Assembly (NCBI GenBank): GCA_950295325.1
Contig: OX485805.1
Location: 9,550,501 to 9,614,500 of the forward strand
Length of the DNA stretch: 64,000 bases
Source: Polytrichum commune
Lineage: Eukaryota; Streptophyta; Polytrichopsida; Polytrichales; Polytrichaceae
Direction of reading: 5' to 3'
In this document: positions 1,772-52,948 of the stretch, piece after piece
How the letters are laid out: each line of letters opens with the position of its first letter
Position numbering within the stretch: position 1 is the stretch's first letter
Program-made: the position numbers and the translations under genes
The notes under the pieces: generated by a model
What the model was told of the DNA's origin: nothing
The model's input: only the letters and a program-made list of their open reading frames with translations
Database searches by the model: none

Positions 1772-4449
1772 TTTTTTTTTTTTAAATCATTTTTTAATTT
1801 AATTGCAATTAAGAAATTCGATGTCCATTAGGAAACTTGTGTTATTCTTTACTATTGAGCTATAGTGTAGTCATGGCTTGAACGTGTCATCATAAACCAT
1901 GTGTTTGCATGTAAATACAATGTCGATAATATGAAATTCAATATTGGCAATGAGTACGTTATATGTTTGCATGTGCAAATTGAAGACAAATAGGGTGTGA
2001 TTAATATTGCATGGTCCAATACTGAAAATCGTTAAATTGTTTGTAGAAATATGGAATTTGAAAAGGGTGATTGTAAGGTCACATTGACCACTAGCAAAAA
2101 AATCGATAGAAGTTGATCAAGACACACAACTATTAAAGGAAAATAGTCAAGCATAAGATTTTTGGGCGATGGTGACGAAAGAAAAAAATGAATGTCTTGG
2201 TTTGTTCTTACAACCAACAAGTCGATAATACTCTCATCGTCATTCCAATGTTGTTCAATTCATTCACAAATCCATTTGGCCTCTTCTTTATAAATATCAC
2301 AAGTTTTTCAAGTTTTTCTTCACTAAAGACATCTTCAAGAAGAAGCTTCAAGATTTGCCAAGTTATTTGCATCTAGCAGTCACTCATATATGTCAAATCT
2401 TCACATAATAGATATGGATTATCCCAAGCAACTAAGATCACAAAGGAAAATTATTTGAAATGTTCGTTCTATATGTAAAATACCGCTACAAATTGCGAAA
2501 AAAGTGTGACTAACACTTGTAAAATTATGATACGAACAAAAGATCTATAGATCCACGTGTTTAAAAAACACTCATGTGAAACAACCGCAATGTTATTTAT
2601 ATAGTATATATTTTGAAGGTCGTTGAACCATTTAATAAGGTTTGGGTTCACCGGATTTATACAGAAATGCCATTAATGATTCTCATGCATCAAAAAAATA
2701 TACGTCACGCAACAACGTGGATATGTTAGTGATGATTGGATTATGTTCTTTTTGCTTACAATAGCGTGGTAAATACATGAGACAATGTATGAACAATTAT
2801 CGTTTAATATGATATGTTGTTATAAAGATTGGATTGTGTGTTTGGAAGATTATGAGGCTTCTAGGTGAAATGATTCTTTGAGTAATTTAACATATTTATA
2901 TCACTTAGTTATTGAGTAATATTTCAATGATTATTTAATCATATATAATATTATTGCACTATGTATTGCACTAATTTTTAATAAATAATATATATTCTTG
3001 TATAATTTTCTATTTTCCGATTTTTTTTCAAATATCTTTGGGGGTTCATAGCACGCATCATTCTTCTAACATATAAACCCCACAATGAAAAAAATAAAAT
3101 ACAATTGGTCATATACCTTCCATTTAGCTAACATTTTTGTGATAGTTACACATAGTTACATAATATCTTATATTTATCAAGTAATAACTCCAGTATATCT
3201 TAAAATATAGTCACATATAATCTGACTAATATATGAAGATTATCTTTTTTAAATGACATGTAAATATTTAAATGTCGTTAATAATCACGCCTCTATTGGT
3301 TTCTTAGTTGCCTTGGCATTTTTACATATGGTTACATAATAATTCATATTTTTCAAAAAATAAACTTAATATTTAAAATCTAATCCAAAACAACTTGTTT
3401 CTAAACCTATCCTCCAACCCTAACCTACAACTTGCAAATGCAATTTAGAATCATATTTGCAAAGTCTGCTTTCCTAGATGTCTTGGTGTTTTACTACCTT
3501 TCGCTTCAACCCTCTACCCTATACTTCAACTTTCCACCCTCCATAAGTTTTCTTCTAAATGAACATTGCTATTAATTTTGACACACAAATGAAATATTTT
3601 TTAAATAAATCATCTCCAATATATGATATTAAAGCTCTACTTCAATTATGTACAATAGATAAGTACTTATAATACATTCACTCCCTTTAGCATATTAGGT
3701 TTCTCAAGAACACTCGCACCATCTAGAACTCACTAACAAATTATTTTACTTTCTTAAGGTATTTGTTAAATTTGGATTAGAGTTTGAGGATTGATAGCTA
3801 GGGTACAGCTACCAACAACACATGCGTTACCCTTCCAAACCTTAGCCATTATCATCATTTGGTATTTTAAACTCCTAAATTAATTTTCATAGTCTTCAAC
3901 AAAATTGTAAATTAGAACTCAATAATTGATTGAAATATACTGTAAATACCATCAAATTAATGTAAATATCATACCACACTTAAAATAATTATGTAATCTT
4001 ATGAATGTTTCTATTTCAATCACTATTCAGCTCACATCACGACCACCTGATCAATTCCATTGGATTCCATCGTATGTACACATATTATTATGTTTATGTA
4101 CGTGGTAAAATTGCTTAATCAATTATCAGAAGTAAGCTTCAATAGACAAGTAGCCAAAAACATGTATTTTGTTTAATAGACATGAATGAAAATGAATCAA
4201 TGGACACAAGCACACAAAGTTCATCAAACTCTTCCAACAAAATTTGTTAAATTCTTGAAGAGACATGGATTTGATGATCCTTGCAGTTGCAAGAAGATTA
4301 CGAATGCCAACATCCATATTCAAACAAATTCAACCACCTTCCTTCATTTCATTGGGATCGAAAATCCCCCATGAATTGCTACAAAGATTCATCATCATAG
4401 TTTGTGCAGTTTACAAAATGTCAGGATTCATCTTGACTTTTAAAAAAAA

Positions 4450-4850
4450 AATGATGATTTCTTTGGGTCATGGTTGGCAGTATGGAGACCATGATGAAGA
4501 GGAAACCACGTCACTTTTTGAAAGCCTTGGTCACAAAACATAGTGTTAAATGGACTTAGCCCAAACATAGTCTCTTTAATGAAAATTAAGAAAATAGGCA
4601 TTATCTAAACACACATACTTGCTTAAAACAACATGCAGTAAATGGACTTTGTTAAAATGAGGCTTGCAAAAATTTTAATCCTTAAAATATTGTTTCTCTT
4701 CTAGCATATTCACCTTATTTTTCACTGATATAATTTTGTGGGGATCCCTCGCCACAAAATCAAGTGACCATCAAACCATATTCATTCATGCACATGTAAA
4801 ATTTCACATTACTCCCATGTCACTTTCTCATTCATTTTTTACATGCTCAT
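4450..4850 (+). repeat. Dispersed repeat F, copy 1
   Basis: A diverged match to 46860-47222. Shared landmarks in order are GGTCATGGT.GGC, AAGCCTTGGTCA, TTGTTTCT, TTATTTTTC, CGCAAAATC..GTGACCA and CATGTCACTTTCTC. No coding capacity or clear terminal repeats were found, so the superfamily is unknown. Confidence 0.6.
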
Positions 4851-36000: not shown

Positions 36001-37178
36001 CTGCATAAGCACTTCCTCCCGCCTTCATAAGGCTCCAAGACGATTGCCAAGTTTCTCCCATCTGTTAAGTATAAGAAGAAGAAAGTTAGTGAAACGCGGA
36101 ATGATAATTTCAAGTCCAGTAAGAAGTTGAGTATGACATGCGCACTTCGCGTCCTAAGCAACATGGACTTAGAATTGGCAGGGTAATCGCTACTAGAACA
36201 TCAGCCACGTGATATGGAAAGTCACACTCATGAAACAACTGGGAAGTATTGAGAAATCAAATTTGTAACCCTAGAGTAGCTTGTTAAGTACAAGGACATT
36301 TACAAAAACATTGAAGTGGATTCAGATACTCTCTATTCACTTCTTCAGGAAGCCGACAAACAGATCAGCCTGCGGAGCTTTGCAAGGAGCCTCTCCGACC
36401 GCTTCAGGTAATTAAACTTCTTATCTTTCAAAAGCATAGTCTGTACAAGCTGGGATGCAATTGAAAATGAAGGCTCCGCTTTACTTCCACGACGCTAGCG
36501 AATAAGGTCAACTTAAATCTCAAAGAGAAGAATGTAAGCTCATGTTAGTTCTAACAACGGAAAGCATAAGTAGTATATAGATCCGATGACGTCATCGTAA
36601 ACTCTGCTCAGAAACTTTATGAACCACACAAAGTTTATGAACTTCAAGACGTCCTGCATGCACCGATATTAGCACGCCTGCATCAATCTATTTTCATCAG
36701 CCTCAGGACAAATGGTCGATGACGCATACTGCATGATGCTAGTCATCTATTAATCAGCTGGTAATCATATATAATCCCCTCCAAATACATTCTGCTTTCA
36801 TCACCGCACATAGGAATTCAAAAACAAAATATCACCTATCTCAACTTATTCTGGTTCTGGAATCTGCATCCAACGATATGTGCTACTAAAAACATAGTAT
36901 TTTAATTCACATTGTCAGAGACTTTAACTTAGTGAAGTGCAACATCTGCAAATTTAAAATCGTTAACTCAACCATCAGCTGGTTGAAGAGTTTGAAAAGT
37001 CATTGCAGATAATCGAAATCAATCATGCACCTAACTTCCGATGGTATTTAATTTTGATCACACTAAGTTCAGCCATACAGTTTTAGCAATGCAGTGGACG
37101 AGCGTACCTTTGAAGTATATAGAGCAGATGTATGTCATTCTTTTGCATATGCCATGCTCTTCGGGGTAGGCTCAGGAT
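30095..37178. other. Long intergenic or non-coding transcribed region downstream of the MIR390 array
   Basis: No protein gene supported on either strand. Possible short exon-like frames (for example minus strand 33475-33669) have no recognisable family. C20 homopolymer at 34131-34150. If the MIR390 primary transcript is long, its 3' part would lie here on the minus strand; this is inference. Confidence 0.4.
34131..34150. repeat. Poly(C)20 tract
   Basis: Twenty consecutive C on the plus strand (G20 on the minus strand), the longest of the seven G/C homopolymers. Confidence 0.95.
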
Positions 37179-37307
37179 AACACAGTTGCAAAGCACAGAA
37201 TGGATAGCGCTATGCTTGAGTGCAACTGTCACACATCTTTCAATGGGAGAAGTGCAACAGAAAGCCCTGATATAGGCGCTATCCCTCCTGAGCTTGGTTA
37301 CTGTGTC
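37179..37307 (-). ncRNA. MIR390: MIR390 hairpin 1 (most 3' on the minus strand)
   Basis: The mature sequence at 37295-37275 is exact miR390. The star (CGCTATCCATTCTGTGCTTTG without its last base) lies at 37209-37189. The 64-nt segment between the arms differs from the other units, so this is the most diverged copy. Its lower stem (GACACAG against CTGTGTT) differs from the other copies (GACATAG or GATATAG against CTATTTC) by a compensatory pair, evidence that pairing is preserved. Confidence 0.9.
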
Positions 37308-37497
37308 ATCCAGAAATGTAGGCAAATCAATGAGTCACTTATACCAAATCGCCTTGAGTATGATCAGGGTGCAACGACAATATAAACATCTAGTGTAAAT
37401 AACAGGAAACAATAAAGAGGTGCTTTCCACTATATGCAAAATATCGTCTTGGTAGCTCGTCATCGCCGGGAAATTGAGCTTCAGGACACCTTAGAAT

Positions 37498-37633
37498 GAA
37501 ATAGTTGCAAAGCACAGAATGGATAGCGCGTTTTGAAGCTTCTGATTCTTGTCAATGAATTCTGCGAAAACACTTCCAAGTCACAGAAGGCTCTAATATA
37601 GGCGCTATCCCTCCTGAGCTTGGTAACTATGTC
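37498..37633 (-). ncRNA. MIR390: MIR390 hairpin 2
   Basis: Exact mature miR390 at 37621-37601 and star at 37528-37508. Below the miRNA duplex at least 13 of 16 positions pair (GACATAGTTACCAAGC against GCTTTGCAACTATTTC), giving the long lower stem needed for base-to-loop DCL1 cutting. Above it another partly paired segment (GAGCCTTCTG against CAGAAGCTTC) precedes the loop. Confidence 0.92.
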
Positions 37634-37823
37634 ATCCAACAATGTAAACAAGTCAATGAGTCACTTATACCAAATCGCCCTGAGTATGATCAGAGTGCAA
37701 CGACAATGTAAACAGCTAGTGTAAATAAGAGGAAACTTTAAAGACGCGCTTTCCAATATATGTAAAACATCGTCTAGGTAGCTCGTCATCGCCGGGAAAT
37801 TGAGCTTCAGGACACCTTAGAAT

Positions 37824-37959
37824 GAAATAGTTGCAAAGCACAGAATGGATAGCGCGTTTGGAAGCTTCTGATTCTTGTCAGTAAATTCTGCGAAAACACT
37901 TCCAAGTCACAGAAGGCTCTAATATAGGCGCTATCCCTCCTGAGCTTGGTAACTATATC
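37824..37959 (-). ncRNA. MIR390: MIR390 hairpin 3
   Basis: Exact mature miR390 at 37947-37927 and star at 37854-37834. Arms and loop are nearly identical to hairpins 2 and 4, with 71 nt between the conserved arm blocks. Confidence 0.92.
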
Positions 37960-38151
37960 ATCCAGCAATGTAGACAAGCCAACTTGAGTCACTTATACCA
38001 AGTCGCCTTGAGTATGATAAGAGTGCAACGACAATGTCAACATCTAGTGTAAATAAGAGGAAACTTTAAAGACGCGCTTTCCAATATATGTAAAGCATCG
38101 TCTCGGTAGCTCGTCATCGCCGGGAAATTGAGCTTCAGGAAACCTTAGAAT

Positions 38152-38287
38152 GAAATAGTTGCAAAGCACAGAATGGATAGCGCATTCTGAAGCTCCTGAC
38201 TCTTGTCAGTGAATTCTGCGAAAACACTTCTAAGTCACAGAAAGCTCTAATATAGGCGCTATCCCTCCTGAGCTTGGTAACTATATC
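38152..38287 (-). ncRNA. MIR390: MIR390 hairpin 4
   Basis: Exact mature miR390 at 38275-38255 and star at 38182-38162. The flanking lower-stem blocks are the same as in hairpin 3. Confidence 0.92.
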
Positions 38288-38409
38288 ATCCAGCAATGTA
38301 GACAAGTCAATTTGAGTCACTTATACCAAATCGCCTTGAGTATGATCAGAATGTAACGACAATATAAACATCTAGTTTAAATAGGAGGAAACTGTAGAGA
38401 TGTGCTTTC

Positions 38410-38544
38410 ATATAGATGTACAACACAGAATGGATAGCGCATTTTGAAGCTTCTGACTCCTGTCAATGAATTCTGCGAAAATACTCCTATATCGCAAAAA
38501 GCTCTATTATAGGCACTATACCTCCTGAGCTTCGTAACTATTTC
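38410..38544 (-). ncRNA. MIR390: MIR390 hairpin 5, decayed or variant copy
   Basis: The mature position 38532-38512 reads AAGCTCAGGAGGTATAGTGC plus C, two changes from canonical (G13 to T and C18 to T). The star block at 38440-38422 lacks one base of the GTGCTT end. The lower stem on the star side is poorly conserved and this unit is shorter (257 bp). It is the 5'-most copy on the minus strand and is probably losing function. Confidence 0.75.
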
Positions 38545-40583
38545 AACCAGCAGTCACGCTACCTGATATCTGCACAGTGATCCACAAATACATTCCCTCG
38601 TTTGTGTGCTCTCAAGAAGTACACAACTTACTACGTCACTCAGATTACAATTTGTGCATTAGAGTATTACAGCTCCTGAATTACACCTATATCCTTGCAT
38701 CTATAGCGTAAGAACTATCATGATGTATATTCTACATCCTAATTGGCTTGAACTAGCAACAGAATTGTGACTCCGGACTCTCGAAGTTTTAACTCAGTAC
38801 ATAATTCCTGGTGCTTTAAACACATGTTCCATCAACTTGCAATATGAGAAGTGCCAAGCGCCACTACCTGCAAAAGAAGAACCTGTCATAGGTTACCTAC
38901 TAGCCTTAGTTCTGAGTCCACTGTAAAAGAAGAACCTCCTGCAGGTAACAGTGTCTGTAAATTTCCCTAACCTACGTCTCTGAGACCACTAGAGATGCCA
39001 TGCGTAGGTCAACTGAGGCCAATATCATGGTACATCTATAATCACACCTTTAGAGTGATCAGGGAGTTAGCAAAATAGCTGCAAATTCAGCTGAATTAGT
39101 GCGGCCCCTTTTTAATCAGCCTGATTTAGTGAGGCATCTTTCAATCACTTCCCAATGGTTACAGCGGTCAAATACTGACAAGGCAAACTTTGAGAATGTG
39201 GCAAGGAGCTCAAATTCTAAGGCTGGCTACTGAATCTCTGTCAAAAGTTTGACAGGTTCTCAGAAAGCTAAATGAGAGAAAAAGCTTGAGTTACTCCAGG
39301 GATTTCATTTGGCCGATAGTGACTCATCATCTGTAAATAGGTTACACCAGACTTGCAAAGTTGTCAAGACTAGCGTGCGAAGTTCCTCTAGCGTTTGTTC
39401 TTGCTGAGCAGCCCTTACTTGTCCTTCTATTTACTAGCTGCAACCATTCTCTTCTCCCCTGTTTCACATAAATCAGGCTCAGGTGCAGAAGATTTCAAGC
39501 CAAACTCCTAAGAATTCTCCGCAGAGTGGATTTAGGTCATAACAATGCACGTCCGGGTGCTTGCAGACATTGCGACTGTTTAAGCATGAGTTCTTTCTTT
39601 CATTTATTTCACTCTGGCGCCAAGGGAGCCTTAATGATCTTGATAGCTCTGAGATCCGCAAAGTGGAATCATTGACGAATCTTGAAGACAATCTCCAAGA
39701 ATATCACTGCGATGTCTATCAAAACGCACTGCTGGTTCCTATATATTTCGTCGTACACTGGAGTTCATTTTCGAGGACATGTAGCATGTGCAAGTTCGGC
39801 AAAGAGACGAGGAACTCGCAACTACGTAAGACTCCTTCACAACTCAAAAGGACGTCAATCTGGAAACGCCAATCTCTCAGCTAGTTGTGACTAGTATCAT
39901 GCTTAATGCCACTTGACATAGTTACTACCATTACCAATCCCTAAGGAAGCCATACGCCTCTTATTGCCGGAGTCGTACACTTAACAACGAAAAACGATCC
40001 CAGAAAATTGAGGTTGGACATACATACACTGATGATGTGGAGATATTCACAATACAGGGAGAGACAACTCGAGGCGCGATCTCTTCTCATCCATGTGTCC
40101 AGGTAAGGCAACACGGGTGCGAGGTAACTCAGTAACCTGGAAAGACCATCTGATCGCAAGTCTCTTGGTTACAAGACAAATCTAAGTCCATAATTCGGTC
40201 AACAAGATACTCAGTGTTCCACTATAGTTTCTACCGCCACAATGTAAACTACCGCCCTAGCTGCCAAAGCAGGGTCGATTATTCCGATATTACTTGCATC
40301 AGGGCTGTCAGAGCAGCGCATGCATCTTCTACTAGCAAACGAAAGCCTCGACTCCAGCCGCATGAAAGATGGCCGAAAGAGCTCTAGAGCGCGCCTCATC
40401 ACCATACCACAACATAGAAGAAGAAGAAGAAAGGTAACAATGGTCACCGTGACAACCTGATATCCAAACAAAACACATGATGAGCTTGTTCCCCTTCAAG
40501 CAACATCGATCGGGGTACCCTACGTGACATATACTAGCAAGCAAGCGGTGCAGATGATGAACAAGTGGTAACAGCATGAATGC
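38545..40583 (-). other. Upstream part of the presumed MIR390 primary transcript
   Basis: Lies between a candidate minus-strand TATA box and the first hairpin. No protein-coding frame with a recognisable domain. It may contain spliced leader exons of the primary transcript, but I cannot assign splice sites with confidence. Confidence 0.3.
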
Positions 40584-48271: not shown

Positions 48272-48371
48272 AACTACATAATGCCCTTGGTTTCAAGCTT
48301 GTGAGACATGCTTTTGTACTACACCTTAGGGCATCTGCAGCCGGCTCGCCAACGGCTCCCGCCAACGGCGC

Positions 48372-50005
48372 ATGGCGGGCCCGGTGCGAAAACGGCCTCC
48401 CAACGGACACTGCACAGCTCCCTCCAAACTGCCGAGGGACGCCATTGAGCTCCCGGTCTCTCCAAATTTTGCACCTGTGGAGGGAGAAGTTTTCCTCCCT
48501 TCAAACTCAGTCAACGCCAGCATGGCAGGGTTGGAAGCGGGAAGGGTGAGGAAAGGGAAGAACTTTACAGCAGAGGAGGAGACATGCTTGTGTAGGAGTT
48601 TTTTGGCAGTGTCGCAGGATCCAGTGTGCGGAAATGGGCAACGCAACACCGCATTCTGGGAGCGCATCACTGCTCTCTTCAATCGCGTGAAGGCAAGGGG
48701 GAGTCCGTTGCGACCTTCAAGGTCTCTAGAGACCAAGTGGGGGAGCATCAAGCATGATGTCTCGAAGTTTTGTGGTGCGTACAAGCAGGTTTTGGATTGT
48801 AGAGAGTCGGGCACTTCACTAGAGGATGTGCTAGATCGTGCATTGGAATACTATAGAGACAGACACCCCAAGCAACAAGGATTCACCTTCCTGCATTGTT
48901 GGGCTTTGTTGAAAGAGGTGCCCAGGTGGTGGGAATCTCCTCTGGACGTCCAGAAGAGAAATCACGGTGGAGAGGGGAGTCCGGGAGGTGTGGCTATGGC
49001 AGCCCGGAGAGCGGTTGTGCACACGCAGCCTGCTGCTGTTGTCGAGGGGGATGCTGTGGAGGGTGCCAGCGCCGAAGGGGAGGGTTTTGGTAGTGTAGAG
49101 AGCGCAGCCCGGGAGTTGGTGAGGCCCAGGGGCCAGAAGGCATCGAAGCAAGACCTGGTGGAGGTTGGGCGCCGAGACTCAATCTTGAAGTCTCAGGCAA
49201 GGGCTACTGAACAAATGGCCGCCGCCAACATGCGGAAGGCGGAGGCAATGCAGGACCACTCGGCGATGGCATTGTTCAAAATGAACCTGGATGAGTTGGA
49301 CCAAGGCGCCAGAGAATACTTCGAGCTTCGACGCTCCGAAGAATTGGAGAGGATAAGGCGCCGAATTGATGCGGAGAAGAGGGTGGCCGACCAGGAGAGG
49401 GTGGAGCATGATAGGCTCATGCTGGAGCAGGAGGCAGATGGGCTTCGGGGGAAACGACCGAGGACTGCACCGACGAACGCCGCTCCTGTAACCGCACAGA
49501 CAGCTCCCTCGCCGAGAATTCCTGCTCCTGTGCCCGAATCGACAGCTCCCTCGCCGAGAATTCCGAGTCCTCCTCCGGTGGCACCTCCTTCATTGCCAGG
49601 TAAGGATTTTTGCAATCTTTAGGGGTTTACAGGCTTCAGGGATTTCTTCATTCTTGAGGTACTGGCCGCTCGGGAGACCAGCAGAATTCTTTTCTGCTGG
49701 TTTGGTTTTGTTTTTTTTTTGGATTTCTTATTCGGCTGTGCTCTTTTGCAGATGATTCCCAAGGTGACTACTGGGAGGATTCAGGGATCATCCCAAACAC
49801 CCAACACCAATCTCAAGCACCAAGCATTCAATCTAATTACCAAACACATAGAAGTGTAGCCAGCTCTCACCCTCAAGGATTGTATAGTGTAGAAAACTCA
49901 AGTGCAGTGGATGGAAATCCCAATGTGATTCTAGGAGGTCAAGAATATGTGTACAGAAACTTTGGACAAGGTCTAAACCTAAATGCCCATTTCTACTCTC
50001 AATGA
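48372..50005 (+). CDS. Harbinger ORF1: Myb/SANT-like (trihelix-type) DNA-binding protein, two exons
   Basis: ORF1 proteins of PIF/Harbinger elements bind subterminal DNA and help the transposase enter the nucleus. Exon 1 is 48372-49599 and exon 2 is 49752-50005 (stop 50003-50005). The intron is GTAAGG..TTTTGCAG, 152 bp, phase 1, giving 493 residues. The Myb/SANT-like domain spans about 60-188 (RKGKNFTAEEE, W96, ETKWGSIKHDVSKFCG, TFLHCWALLK). A basic, Glu/Arg-rich probable coiled coil follows at about 265-350, then a Pro/Ser/Ala-rich linker. The layout matches plant proteins often annotated as NAM-associated or trihelix-like. An alternative start at M51 (48522) gives 443 residues; the first 50 residues arise from terminal-repeat-proximal sequence, so M51 may be the true start. 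No break is seen. Confidence 0.85.
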
Positions 50006-50039: not shown

Positions 50040-50400
50040 CTAGCCTCTGAATTTCTGCAATCTGCTGTATTGTTGTGGCCTGTGAAAGCTGGTAGAGTCT
50101 GAAATTTGTTCAAATGTAGTAGACTGCGAACTGTGCTAGGGTCTGAAATCTGGTGATATCATGTAGCCTGTGAAATCTGATAGACTATGAAATCTGTTGA
50201 TATGTAGCCTGTATGGCTACACTCTGAAATCTGCTGAAATCATTATAGACTCTGAAATGTGCACCCGAATGTTTTTAGACTCTGCAATCTGCAGCCGAAT
50301 GGTGTAGCCTGTAACCTTTGCTAGACTGTGAAATGTACTGAAATGTTTGATAGACTTTTTGTAGCCTGAAATCTTTACTGCACTCTATTTGTTTCATTTG
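50040..50400. repeat. Degenerate short tandem repeats inside the Harbinger element
   Basis: Recurring TGAAATCTG, TAGACT(G/C)TG and GTAGCCTGT words with irregular 20-40 bp period, directly after the ORF1 stop. They may be 3'UTR or transposase/ORF1 binding repeats. Confidence 0.65.
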
Positions 50401-50570
50401 CTTGATTTCATATAGACTTATGAATGACACACAAAGAACTTGATTTCATATAATCTTATCAGTGACACACAAAGAACTTGATTTCATATAATCTTATCAG
50501 TGACACACAAAGAACTTGATTTCATATAATCTTATCAGTGACACACAAAGAACTTGATTTCACGCATAAA
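50401..50570. repeat. 38-bp minisatellite inside the Harbinger element
   Basis: Units start CTTGATTTCATATAATCTTA and end GACACACAAAGAA, at 50401, 50439, 50477 and 50515 with a partial fifth at 50553. Copies 2-4 are identical; copy 1 has several changes. Confidence 0.95.
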
Positions 50571-50941: not shown

Positions 50942-52330
50942 TCACCTAGCACGTCCTCTCAACATCCAAAGGTGGTCAATCAAATCATTTCTCAATGCAA
51001 AATGGGACTGTACATTCTCTATCTCTCTAGTCCCACTTTGCAAATCATAGAATGTGAAGGGGGAAGGGGTAATTGCCACTGGAGCTCCAAGATCAACAAG
51101 AGGCTCTAGGCCTAAATCACGCTCATCCTCTATAATCATGTTATGCATAATGATGCAAGCGATCATGATGTTCGTGATGACACCTAGATCCCAATGCCGC
51201 ACTGGATTTTTGATGATGTCCCATCGAGACTGTAAAACGCCAAATGCCCGCTCAACATCCTTCCTAGCACCCTCCTGGCACTTTGTAAAATGCTGCTTCA
51301 TCTCACCTTGAGGCTCATGAATTGGGTGCACAAAACAAGACCAAGGTGGATAAATCCCATCAGTGAGCACGTAATACCGGGAGTAGACATGGCCGTTTAC
51401 CTCGAATGTGAGGTCTTGCCCAGGACCCCGCAACATCTTCAACAAAAAAGGGGAACGGTCTAACACATTAATGTCGTTGTTTCCCCCTGGCAACCCAAAG
51501 AAGGCATGCCAAATCCATAGACTCTGGTCAGCGACTGCCTCCAATATAATGCTCCTGTTCTTGTCCTTGTCTTGGAATTGCCCTTGCCATGCAACGGGGC
51601 AATTCTTCCAATTCCAGTGCATGCAATCTAAACTACCAAACATCCCTGGAAACCCCCGGTTCTCATTGATACTCATTTGCAAAACCAAATCGTCCCTAGA
51701 TGGTTCTCTCAAGTATGTAGACTCAAAACAACCCCTTATAGCCACACAAAACCTCCTCATACACTCTTGGGCAGTGGACTCACCCAACCTACAATATTCA
51801 TCGGTTGCATCTGCACCCGAACCGTATGCAAGCATGCGAAGTGCAGCAGTACACTTTTGCAACGGTGATAAGCTCAAGCGTCCACAAGCATCCAGTTTTT
51901 GCAAAAACCATGGATCAAAATTGCCAACCGCATCCACAATCCTCAAGAACACCTCCCTCCGCATCCTAAACCGTCTCCTAAACACGCTAGGTCCATAAGT
52001 CGGGTTGTCCGAAAAATAATCAGTCACCAACAAATTATGATAGGTTTCCCTATCACGAAACACATTTTTCCTTCCAGGTACACTCCCACGAACCACGGGA
52101 GTAGAACTACATTGCCCCAAAATTTCAGATGACACAACATCAACCATCTGCATGAATAGCTCATTCTCAAATTCATCCTCCATGTCTTCTTCAAACCCTA
52201 AATCAAAACATAAGTTTCTCTCAAGCTCATCCTCCCAACTATCCATGACACCTTCCCAACAAGAAAGATTTACAAGTCCTAACCCTAAAACCACACAAAA
52301 TACACTCCCCTCAATAACAAATCGCCACAC
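50942..52330 (-). CDS. PIF/Harbinger DDE transposase (HARBI1/ALP1-like, DDE_Tnp_4)
   Basis: Catalyses excision and insertion of the element. Intronless frame of 462 residues; the likely start is M29 (52246, MDSWEDELERN, acidic N-terminus), giving 434 residues. An N-terminal HTH-like region reads YGPSVFRRRFRMRREVFLRI (113-132), followed by LSPLQKCTAALRMLAYG. The catalytic triad is present: D235 in GSLDCMHW, D324 in LTDGIYP, E360 in RKDVERAFGVLQ, with exactly 35 residues between D324 and E360. FFGLPGGNNDINVL (278-290) and ACIIMHNMIIEDER (391-404) are the other family blocks. No stop or frameshift. Plant relatives are annotated as nuclease HARBI1 or ALP1-like. It needs ORF1 (plus strand, convergent) as partner. 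Confidence 0.95.
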   Translation of the reverse strand: MWRFVIEGSVFCVVLGLGLVNLSCWEGVMDSWEDELERNLCFDLGFEEDMEDEFENELFMQMVDVVSSEILGQCSSTPVVRGSVPGRKNVFRDRETYHNLLVTDYFSDNPTYGPSVFRRRFRMRREVFLRIVDAVGNFDPWFLQKLDACGRLSLSPLQKCTAALRMLAYGSGADATDEYCRLGESTAQECMRRFCVAIRGCFESTYLREPSRDDLVLQMSINENRGFPGMFGSLDCMHWNWKNCPVAWQGQFQDKDKNRSIILEAVADQSLWIWHAFFGLPGGNNDINVLDRSPFLLKMLRGPGQDLTFEVNGHVYSRYYVLTDGIYPPWSCFVHPIHEPQGEMKQHFTKCQEGARKDVERAFGVLQSRWDIIKNPVRHWDLGVITNIMIACIIMHNMIIEDERDLGLEPLVDLGAPVAITPSPFTFYDLQSGTREIENVQSHFALRNDLIDHLWMLRGRAR

Positions 52331-52948
52331 ATGCCCTACAATCTCAAACGATAATTCAACAGCTTCGAAAAAGCTTGCAGCTCTGGCCCTTTCAACTCTG
52401 GTTTCGGGTGATCAGCTACTGGAGTGCTCCGGTTTCAGGATAACAAGCTCACACAAAACTATGGCCAACTGGCAGGCCACGCAGGCTTGCCACCCACCGC
52501 GGTGGCCCCACCCAATACCCTTCCCGCGCGCATACAGGGGGCCCTTGCAGGGCGCCGACTGGGCGGCCCTCCCGGCACGGCCCTCCCTCCAAATTAAGTG
52601 CCCGCGTCAATGCCCGTTGCTGGGACCCTTTGCCGTGAGCCGACTGCAGATGCCCTTAGAATGTGCAATACTCCTCGTCCTGTAAAGGGTTAAAGTGCAA
52701 TGTGCATGGCAGCCATAAAAAGAATTCAAAAACAAAACCCAAAAACAAACAAAGAACAAACATCCAAGTTGCATGCAAGTGAAGATGAAAATCTGACATT
52801 CTACATAACTTACTTATTACCTAGTCACAGTTGGTGAAGTGGAAGCAACCTTTCAAGAGACGGTCGACTTGGTCAAAACACTCCACTTCAACATTAAAGG
52901 TGGATAATGGTCCATGTCACATGGTTGCTTTTCAAATACCACAAGTAA

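Follow-up and report, generated by a model that had tools for sequence, protein, structure and literature searches.

Why does a moss genome carry miR390 five times in close succession, and are these copies hairpins that could supply the microRNA? miR390 ranks among the most ancient microRNAs of land plants, and a small number of separate genes usually produces it. The stretch of Polytrichum commune DNA analysed here (64,000 nucleotides, referred to as the window) is situated on contig C3 of a genome of 407.8 Mb in 64 contigs, seven of which, measuring 42-78 Mb, contain 406.07 of the 407.81 Mb. On its minus strand, miR390 occurs five times head to tail between 37177 and 38548, as four exact 21-nt copies and one two-base variant. 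The chance expectation for these matches is 0.00 and none of 100 shuffles was as good, which confirms an earlier note that had claimed four exact copies and a two-base variant on one strand. The features of the array are as follows.

37177..38548, minus strand: MIR390 tandem array of five units; in a transcript, unit 5 (38.5 kb) would come first and unit 1 (37.2 kb) last
37177..37311, minus strand: unit 1 hairpin; exact miR390 at 37275-37295, predicted star at 37189-37209, loop unlike that of units 2-4
37496..37637, minus strand: unit 2 hairpin; exact miR390 at 37601-37621, predicted star at 37508-37528
37638..37821, minus strand: one of the spacers, about 180 bases long
37822..37963, minus strand: unit 3 hairpin; exact miR390 at 37927-37947, predicted star at 37834-37854
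38150..38291, minus strand: unit 4 hairpin; exact miR390 at 38255-38275, predicted star at 38162-38182
38407..38548, minus strand: unit 5, probably a decaying hairpin; variant miR390 at 38512-38532, star-like arm at 38419-38439, short lower stem

Successive miR390 copies are 326, 326, 328 and 257 bases apart. The unit length of about 326 bp given in the earlier note thus holds for three of the four intervals and fails for the last. Tandem Repeats Finder reports a single array at 37257-38425, with a period of 328 and 92% matches. From miR390 to star, the coordinates of the five units span 107-114 bases. The two mismatches of the unit 5 miR390 are located at positions 13 and 18.

Folding indicated that only four of the five units look processable. 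Units 1-4, folded singly, have z scores of -5.92, -6.97, -7.21 and -5.60, respectively, and none of 200 shuffles was as good. Each has a 21-nt star, three unpaired miR390 positions and 13 pairs below the duplex. All four carry miR390 on the 5' arm opposite a star with at most five duplex mismatches, the limit used for membership. Unit 5 folds weakly (z -1.26 with 21 of 200 shuffles as good; -1.98 with 7 of 200 when trimmed), with four miR390 positions unpaired and eight lower-stem pairs. In the fold of the whole 1521-nt array, units 1-4 retain their own hairpins, with a mean local pairing probability of 0.83-0.85 and distant pairing of at most 0.011, and cross-pairing among them is nearly absent despite their interchangeable arms. 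In the minimum-energy fold, the miR390 arm of unit 5 is not paired with its own star. The claim that every unit has a star arm and a paired lower stem is borne out for units 1-4; unit 5, with its eight pairs, falls short of a full lower stem. Likewise, the proposed check of folding each unit places miR390 and star in one stem for units 1-4, and for unit 5 this arrangement is lost in the whole-array fold.

All five units match the Rfam MIR390 covariance model (RF00689) on the minus strand, with E values of 1.5e-8 to 2.1e-4 and scores of 32.7-47.5 bits. These scores are below the curated 77-bit cut-off, and no unit is found at the gathering threshold. The loop is the weak part in the three alignments shown. 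The units share with the family a 5' arm bearing the identical mature 21-mer, the star arm, the lower stem and a hairpin of about 140 nt. They differ from it in their sub-threshold scores and in being copies in two arrays (the second is described below) rather than a few separate loci.

The strand has to be considered because the hairpins are near-palindromes, so that the plus strand of units 1-4 also folds (z -3.3 to -6.7). Four of the five units match the Rfam model on the plus strand as well, more weakly than on the minus strand. A plus-strand transcript would necessarily contain the perfect miR390 complement four times, and could act as a miR390 sponge or a source of tasiRNAs. We regard this as very improbable. 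A model trained on the hairpins of the two arrays, eight in all, gives 120-159 bits on the minus strand of the window and 24-71 bits on the plus strand, the window hairpins being within its training set, and favours the minus strand by 58-102 bits. Conservation extends beyond the miR390 site to the whole stem, including the star arm and lower stem, and the antisense of any MIRNA gene has the same property. The minus-strand assignment rests mainly on the canonical 5'-arm miR390 and the better minus-strand scores.

The copies differ widely in similarity. The hairpins of units 2-4 are 94-97% identical to one another, and over the whole unit the identity to unit 3 is 94% for both unit 2 and unit 4, which supports the local amplification proposed in the earlier note. 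Unit 5 is 83-86% identical to units 2-4 in the hairpin. The unit 1 hairpin is only 67-69% identical to those of units 2-4, and 68-70% identical to the hairpins of the C1 array. We favour, without regarding it as proven, an old tandem residence on C3 with a recent burst of units 2-4, over a fast-changing unit 1 loop. Tandem repeats commonly cause assembly errors in which one locus is written repeatedly. Such an artefact is hardly credible for this array. Neighboring units differ by about 6% through scattered substitutions, units 1 and 5 differ strongly, the spacings are unequal, and the C1 units are just 70-73% identical.

Substitutions are unevenly distributed between stems and the remaining sequence. 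Among units 2-4, 1 of 73 stem columns varies, versus 33 of 253 columns outside the stem, in loops and spacers (Fisher's test, p 0.0013; this and the following tests take columns as independent). For units 1-4, the counts are 7 of 73 versus 91 of 253 (p 3.5e-6), a comparison that is weak in that the flank of unit 1, at the array end, barely aligns. For the C1 array, the variable columns number 9 of 69 in the stem and 174 of 458 elsewhere within BLAST-supported ranges (p 1.5e-5). When units 2-5 are compared, there is no significant contrast (p 0.24; 10 of 73 versus 46 of 253), which would follow if unit 5 has been released from selection.

These distributions bear on the possibility that the array is mostly a relic, with one or two hairpins in use and the others decaying as neutral tandem copies. 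Unit 5 folds weakly, has a short lower stem and carries two miR390 changes; it is probably decaying as this explanation predicts, and the likeness of units 2-4 may mean that there has been little time for decay. However, units 2-4 have changed almost exclusively outside the stem, and the older C1 array has kept the stem in all three hairpins despite its low unit identity. We therefore consider a relic unlikely.

Pairing across all eight hairpins is also well preserved. No more than one hairpin is unpaired at any of the 29 stem pairs, 15 of which never vary. Paired cells amount to 96.5%, a share that falls to 28.6-43.3% if the partner column is shifted by 1-3 positions. The covariation signal is weak. 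Changes on both sides are seen in two stem pairs, a number reached by 52 of 500 shuffles; the percentage paired was reached by 34 of 500 and the covariation score by 20 of 500.

Our genome-wide scan also revealed a second array, which is older and lies on a different chromosome. Outside the window array, exact or one-mismatch miR390 is found only at C1:52889713-52891336. Two exact copies and one with a single change, 991 and 612 bases apart, lie there in three hairpins with z scores of -6.2, -4.3 and -4.7 and lower stems of 13-14 pairs. Both loci are homotypic clusters on one strand, with five units in 1372 bases on C3 and three in about 1.75 kb on C1. The C1 stems are conserved even though the repeat units are 70-73% identical. 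When the 64 kb window is compared with 46 kb around the C1 array, the common elements are the hairpins and pieces resembling dispersed repeats, most of which occur in multiple places. A fragment of a further repeat unit is located at about 4431-4797 of the extracted C1 locus (L009); the model finds no hairpin in it, and it is perhaps a lost fourth copy.

In total, 31 places in the genome are within three mismatches of miR390 or its complement, a limit at which copies with more than three changes could be missed. Ten of them are miR390 or star arms of the two arrays, and the remaining 21 give no match to the eight-hairpin model at E values up to 10. Two other families served as controls for clustering, a small sample searched at one mismatch or fewer, in which diverged members would be missed. 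miR166 is found at one place only, an exact match that folds. miR156 is found at four places (two exact, two with one mismatch) on four different contigs, with one match in the reversed control. Neither family forms a cluster.

Taken together, we consider it highly probable that the window contains a homotypic MIR390 tandem cluster which arose by repeated local duplication, whose stems are under selection and whose likely use is miR390 supply. A unit of about 326 bp would have been duplicated locally and repeatedly; unequal crossing-over is the usual route of such tandem duplication. The resulting array would consist of a diverged end copy (unit 1), three recent, nearly identical copies (units 2-4) and a decaying one (unit 5). 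Units 1-4 would act as independent hairpins: the 5' arm holds miR390, the star fits a 21-nt duplex that leaves 2-nt overhangs, and 13 pairs make up the lower stem. Plant hairpins of the MIR390 type are processed from base to loop by a DCL1-type enzyme. By analogy with plant MIR390 biology, transcription would be by RNA polymerase II, such an enzyme would release an identical miR390 from each hairpin in the base-to-loop direction, and miR390 would act on TAS3. Selection would hold the stems, and loops and spacers would drift. The likely benefit would be that tasiRNA production has more miR390 to draw on, or a more dependable supply of it.

We lean towards a single primary transcript common to all units, as proposed in the earlier note. 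Two points make a polycistronic RNA attractive: the hairpins are separated by 180 bases, and 25% of the miRNAs of P. patens are polycistronic (PMC9291395, in the available extract, citing Axtell 2007). Alternatively, the units may be separate small genes, with the duplicated segment bringing a promoter and a hairpin each time. On C1, a TATATA-type block is located upstream of each hairpin (at about 1852, 2651 and 3660 of L009, with miR390 at 2214, 3205 and 3817). On C3, units 2 and 3 are each preceded by ATATAT at a distance of about 140 bases (37761 and 38089). However, the motif distances vary from about 160 to 555 bases, the motif is present in two of the five C3 units, and TATA[AT]A occurs anyway at about 1.3 per kb and strand in the window. 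The spacers of about 180 bases are also short for promoters. Separate genes are doubtful on this evidence, and keep some probability through the repeated TATA-like blocks on C1.

A host gene for the C3 array was sought among 98 open frames of at least 55 amino acids between 26.5 and 48.3 kb, none of which has a match better than E 0.01. The single match at E 0.01 is to DUF325, a viral family. Further along the window, a frame with a NAM-associated C-terminal domain (48330-49622, plus strand) and a plant DDE transposase frame (50942-52411, minus strand) are found (PF04827, PF13359), a pair which we take to be the make-up of a PIF/Harbinger-type element. Tandem repeats at 50401-50562 (38 bases, 4.3 copies, 96% matches) and 50074-50203 (44 bases, 3 copies) are located beside the transposase frame.

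The mechanism is a known one; what is unusual is the arrangement of the MIR390 hairpins found, which are grouped in two tandem arrays that differ in age. The earlier note had held MIR390 genes to be mostly single dispersed loci, and this fits the counts given in the available part of PMC3835848, three MIR390 loci in P. patens (Physcomitrium patens) and single copies in Pohlia and Ceratodon cDNA. Homotypic plant MIRNA clusters have been described for miR395, miR169, miR156 and miR1219 (PMC2358906, in excerpt). Like the present arrays, these have same-family hairpins close together in one orientation, via tandem duplication. Unlike them, the P. commune genome has two arrays of different ages, and miR390 is not named in that excerpt. 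In Marchantia, Mpo-MIR390 and Mpo-MIR11676 share a locus with a common transcript (PMC9291395, in excerpt). This is again a bryophyte MIR390 hairpin in a multi-hairpin locus. It differs in that MIR390 is joined there with another miRNA and the common transcript is reported; here all hairpins are MIR390 and are known from sequence. A Pellia pri-miR390 is said in the excerpted text of PMC4368373 to yield miR390 and miR390a, which are perhaps isoforms of one hairpin. No MIR390-only array appears among the matches listed for the miR390 literature, as far as their excerpts extend; one may still be described in the main survey. An array could go unseen in PCR surveys in which each moss yields a single main band of about 100 bases (PMC3835848, in excerpt), the C3 units measuring 107-114 bases.

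A bolder proposal is that all MIR390 genes of this lineage are in homotypic arrays formed on more than one occasion, the array on C1 being old and that on C3 layered with a recent burst, and that selection retains several identical hairpins in each. We hold it tentatively, as rather less than an even chance. If it is true, the number of copies per array would determine how much miR390 is supplied and would act as a dose device for the tasiRNA switch, with miR166 and miR156 left unamplified in this genome. Two arrays of unlike age in one genome make it possible to ask, in a natural setting, whether the moss tasiRNA pathway is sensitive to microRNA dose. They also show how identical hairpins persist or vanish after tandem duplication.

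The expected partner of miR390 was sought with several patterns. The tasiARF pattern with up to three mismatches gave three scattered matches in the genome. Patterns for a double miR390 site gave one repeat-like match, none, and three versus two in the reversed control. A codon pattern for the ARF site had no matches. A relaxed single-site pattern gave 15 matches, nine of them in the two arrays, and the other six were equalled by six in the reversed control. No convincing two-site TAS3 locus was recognized among 13 places scanned with their flanks (six relaxed and seven three-mismatch matches), in which the best tasiARF-like stretch has mismatches at 6 of 21 positions. Two of these candidates, L014 and L019, have a weak second site on the same strand (381 and 176 bases off) and were rejected, both reading by eye as leucine-rich-repeat coding sequence. 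Either the patterns may be too strict or the sites may have diverged; absence of TAS3 is not implied. Two TAS3 of 227 and 262 bases are given for P. commune in the available part of PMC3835848. In P. patens, TAS3 is cut at both sites and AGO7 is given as not identified (PMC3565333, in excerpt), and the AGO7 step of flowering plants is therefore not to be assumed here.

Leucine-rich-repeat (LRR) sequences are prominent among the near-matches. The perfect miR390 complement in frame reads GAIPPEL (for example at 37275-37295 of the window, plus strand), which we take to resemble the plant LRR consensus. LRR genes surface as near-matches because of this reading, and the likeness may lie behind the frequent prediction of LRR genes as miR390 targets. 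In excerpts of PMC10473749, R genes are reported as miR390 targets in Wollemi pine. Among the 21 near-matches outside the arrays, one is an LRR gene and 12 are copies of one dispersed element that carries an LRR fragment. In the gene (L032, C1:70077370; Pfam LRR), all 21 positions would pair with miR390, two of them as G:U.

The 12 copies of the dispersed element (L008/L010 at C1:42.65 Mb, and L033-L043) are found on C1, C2, C3, C4 and C6. They are 94-100% identical over 621 bases and form two subfamilies. The element carries a 302-base piece that is 94% identical to the LRR gene at L032 (C1:70077070-70077690). In 10 of the 12 copies, the miR390 site has one G:U and one mismatch at position 9; the remaining two have one further change. 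The element looks like a young mobile element with a captured gene fragment. As a bolder side-reading, part of the demand for miR390 might come from LRR sequences, namely the L032 gene and the 12 mobile, nearly complementary sites.

A separate observation concerns LEAFY. Type I and type II LEAFY have been reported to occur together in Polytrichum commune and in mosses outside Bryopsida (PMC6588583, in excerpt). Three LEAFY genes are found in this genome, at C1:40571425-40572195, C1:62298386-62299612 and C7:8635861-8637757 (L011, L012 and L030, respectively). The site that distinguishes type I from type II is H in one copy and D in two. Two of the three copies were searched against solved structures, and the best match is 4bhk, which we take to be the moss LEAFY structure.
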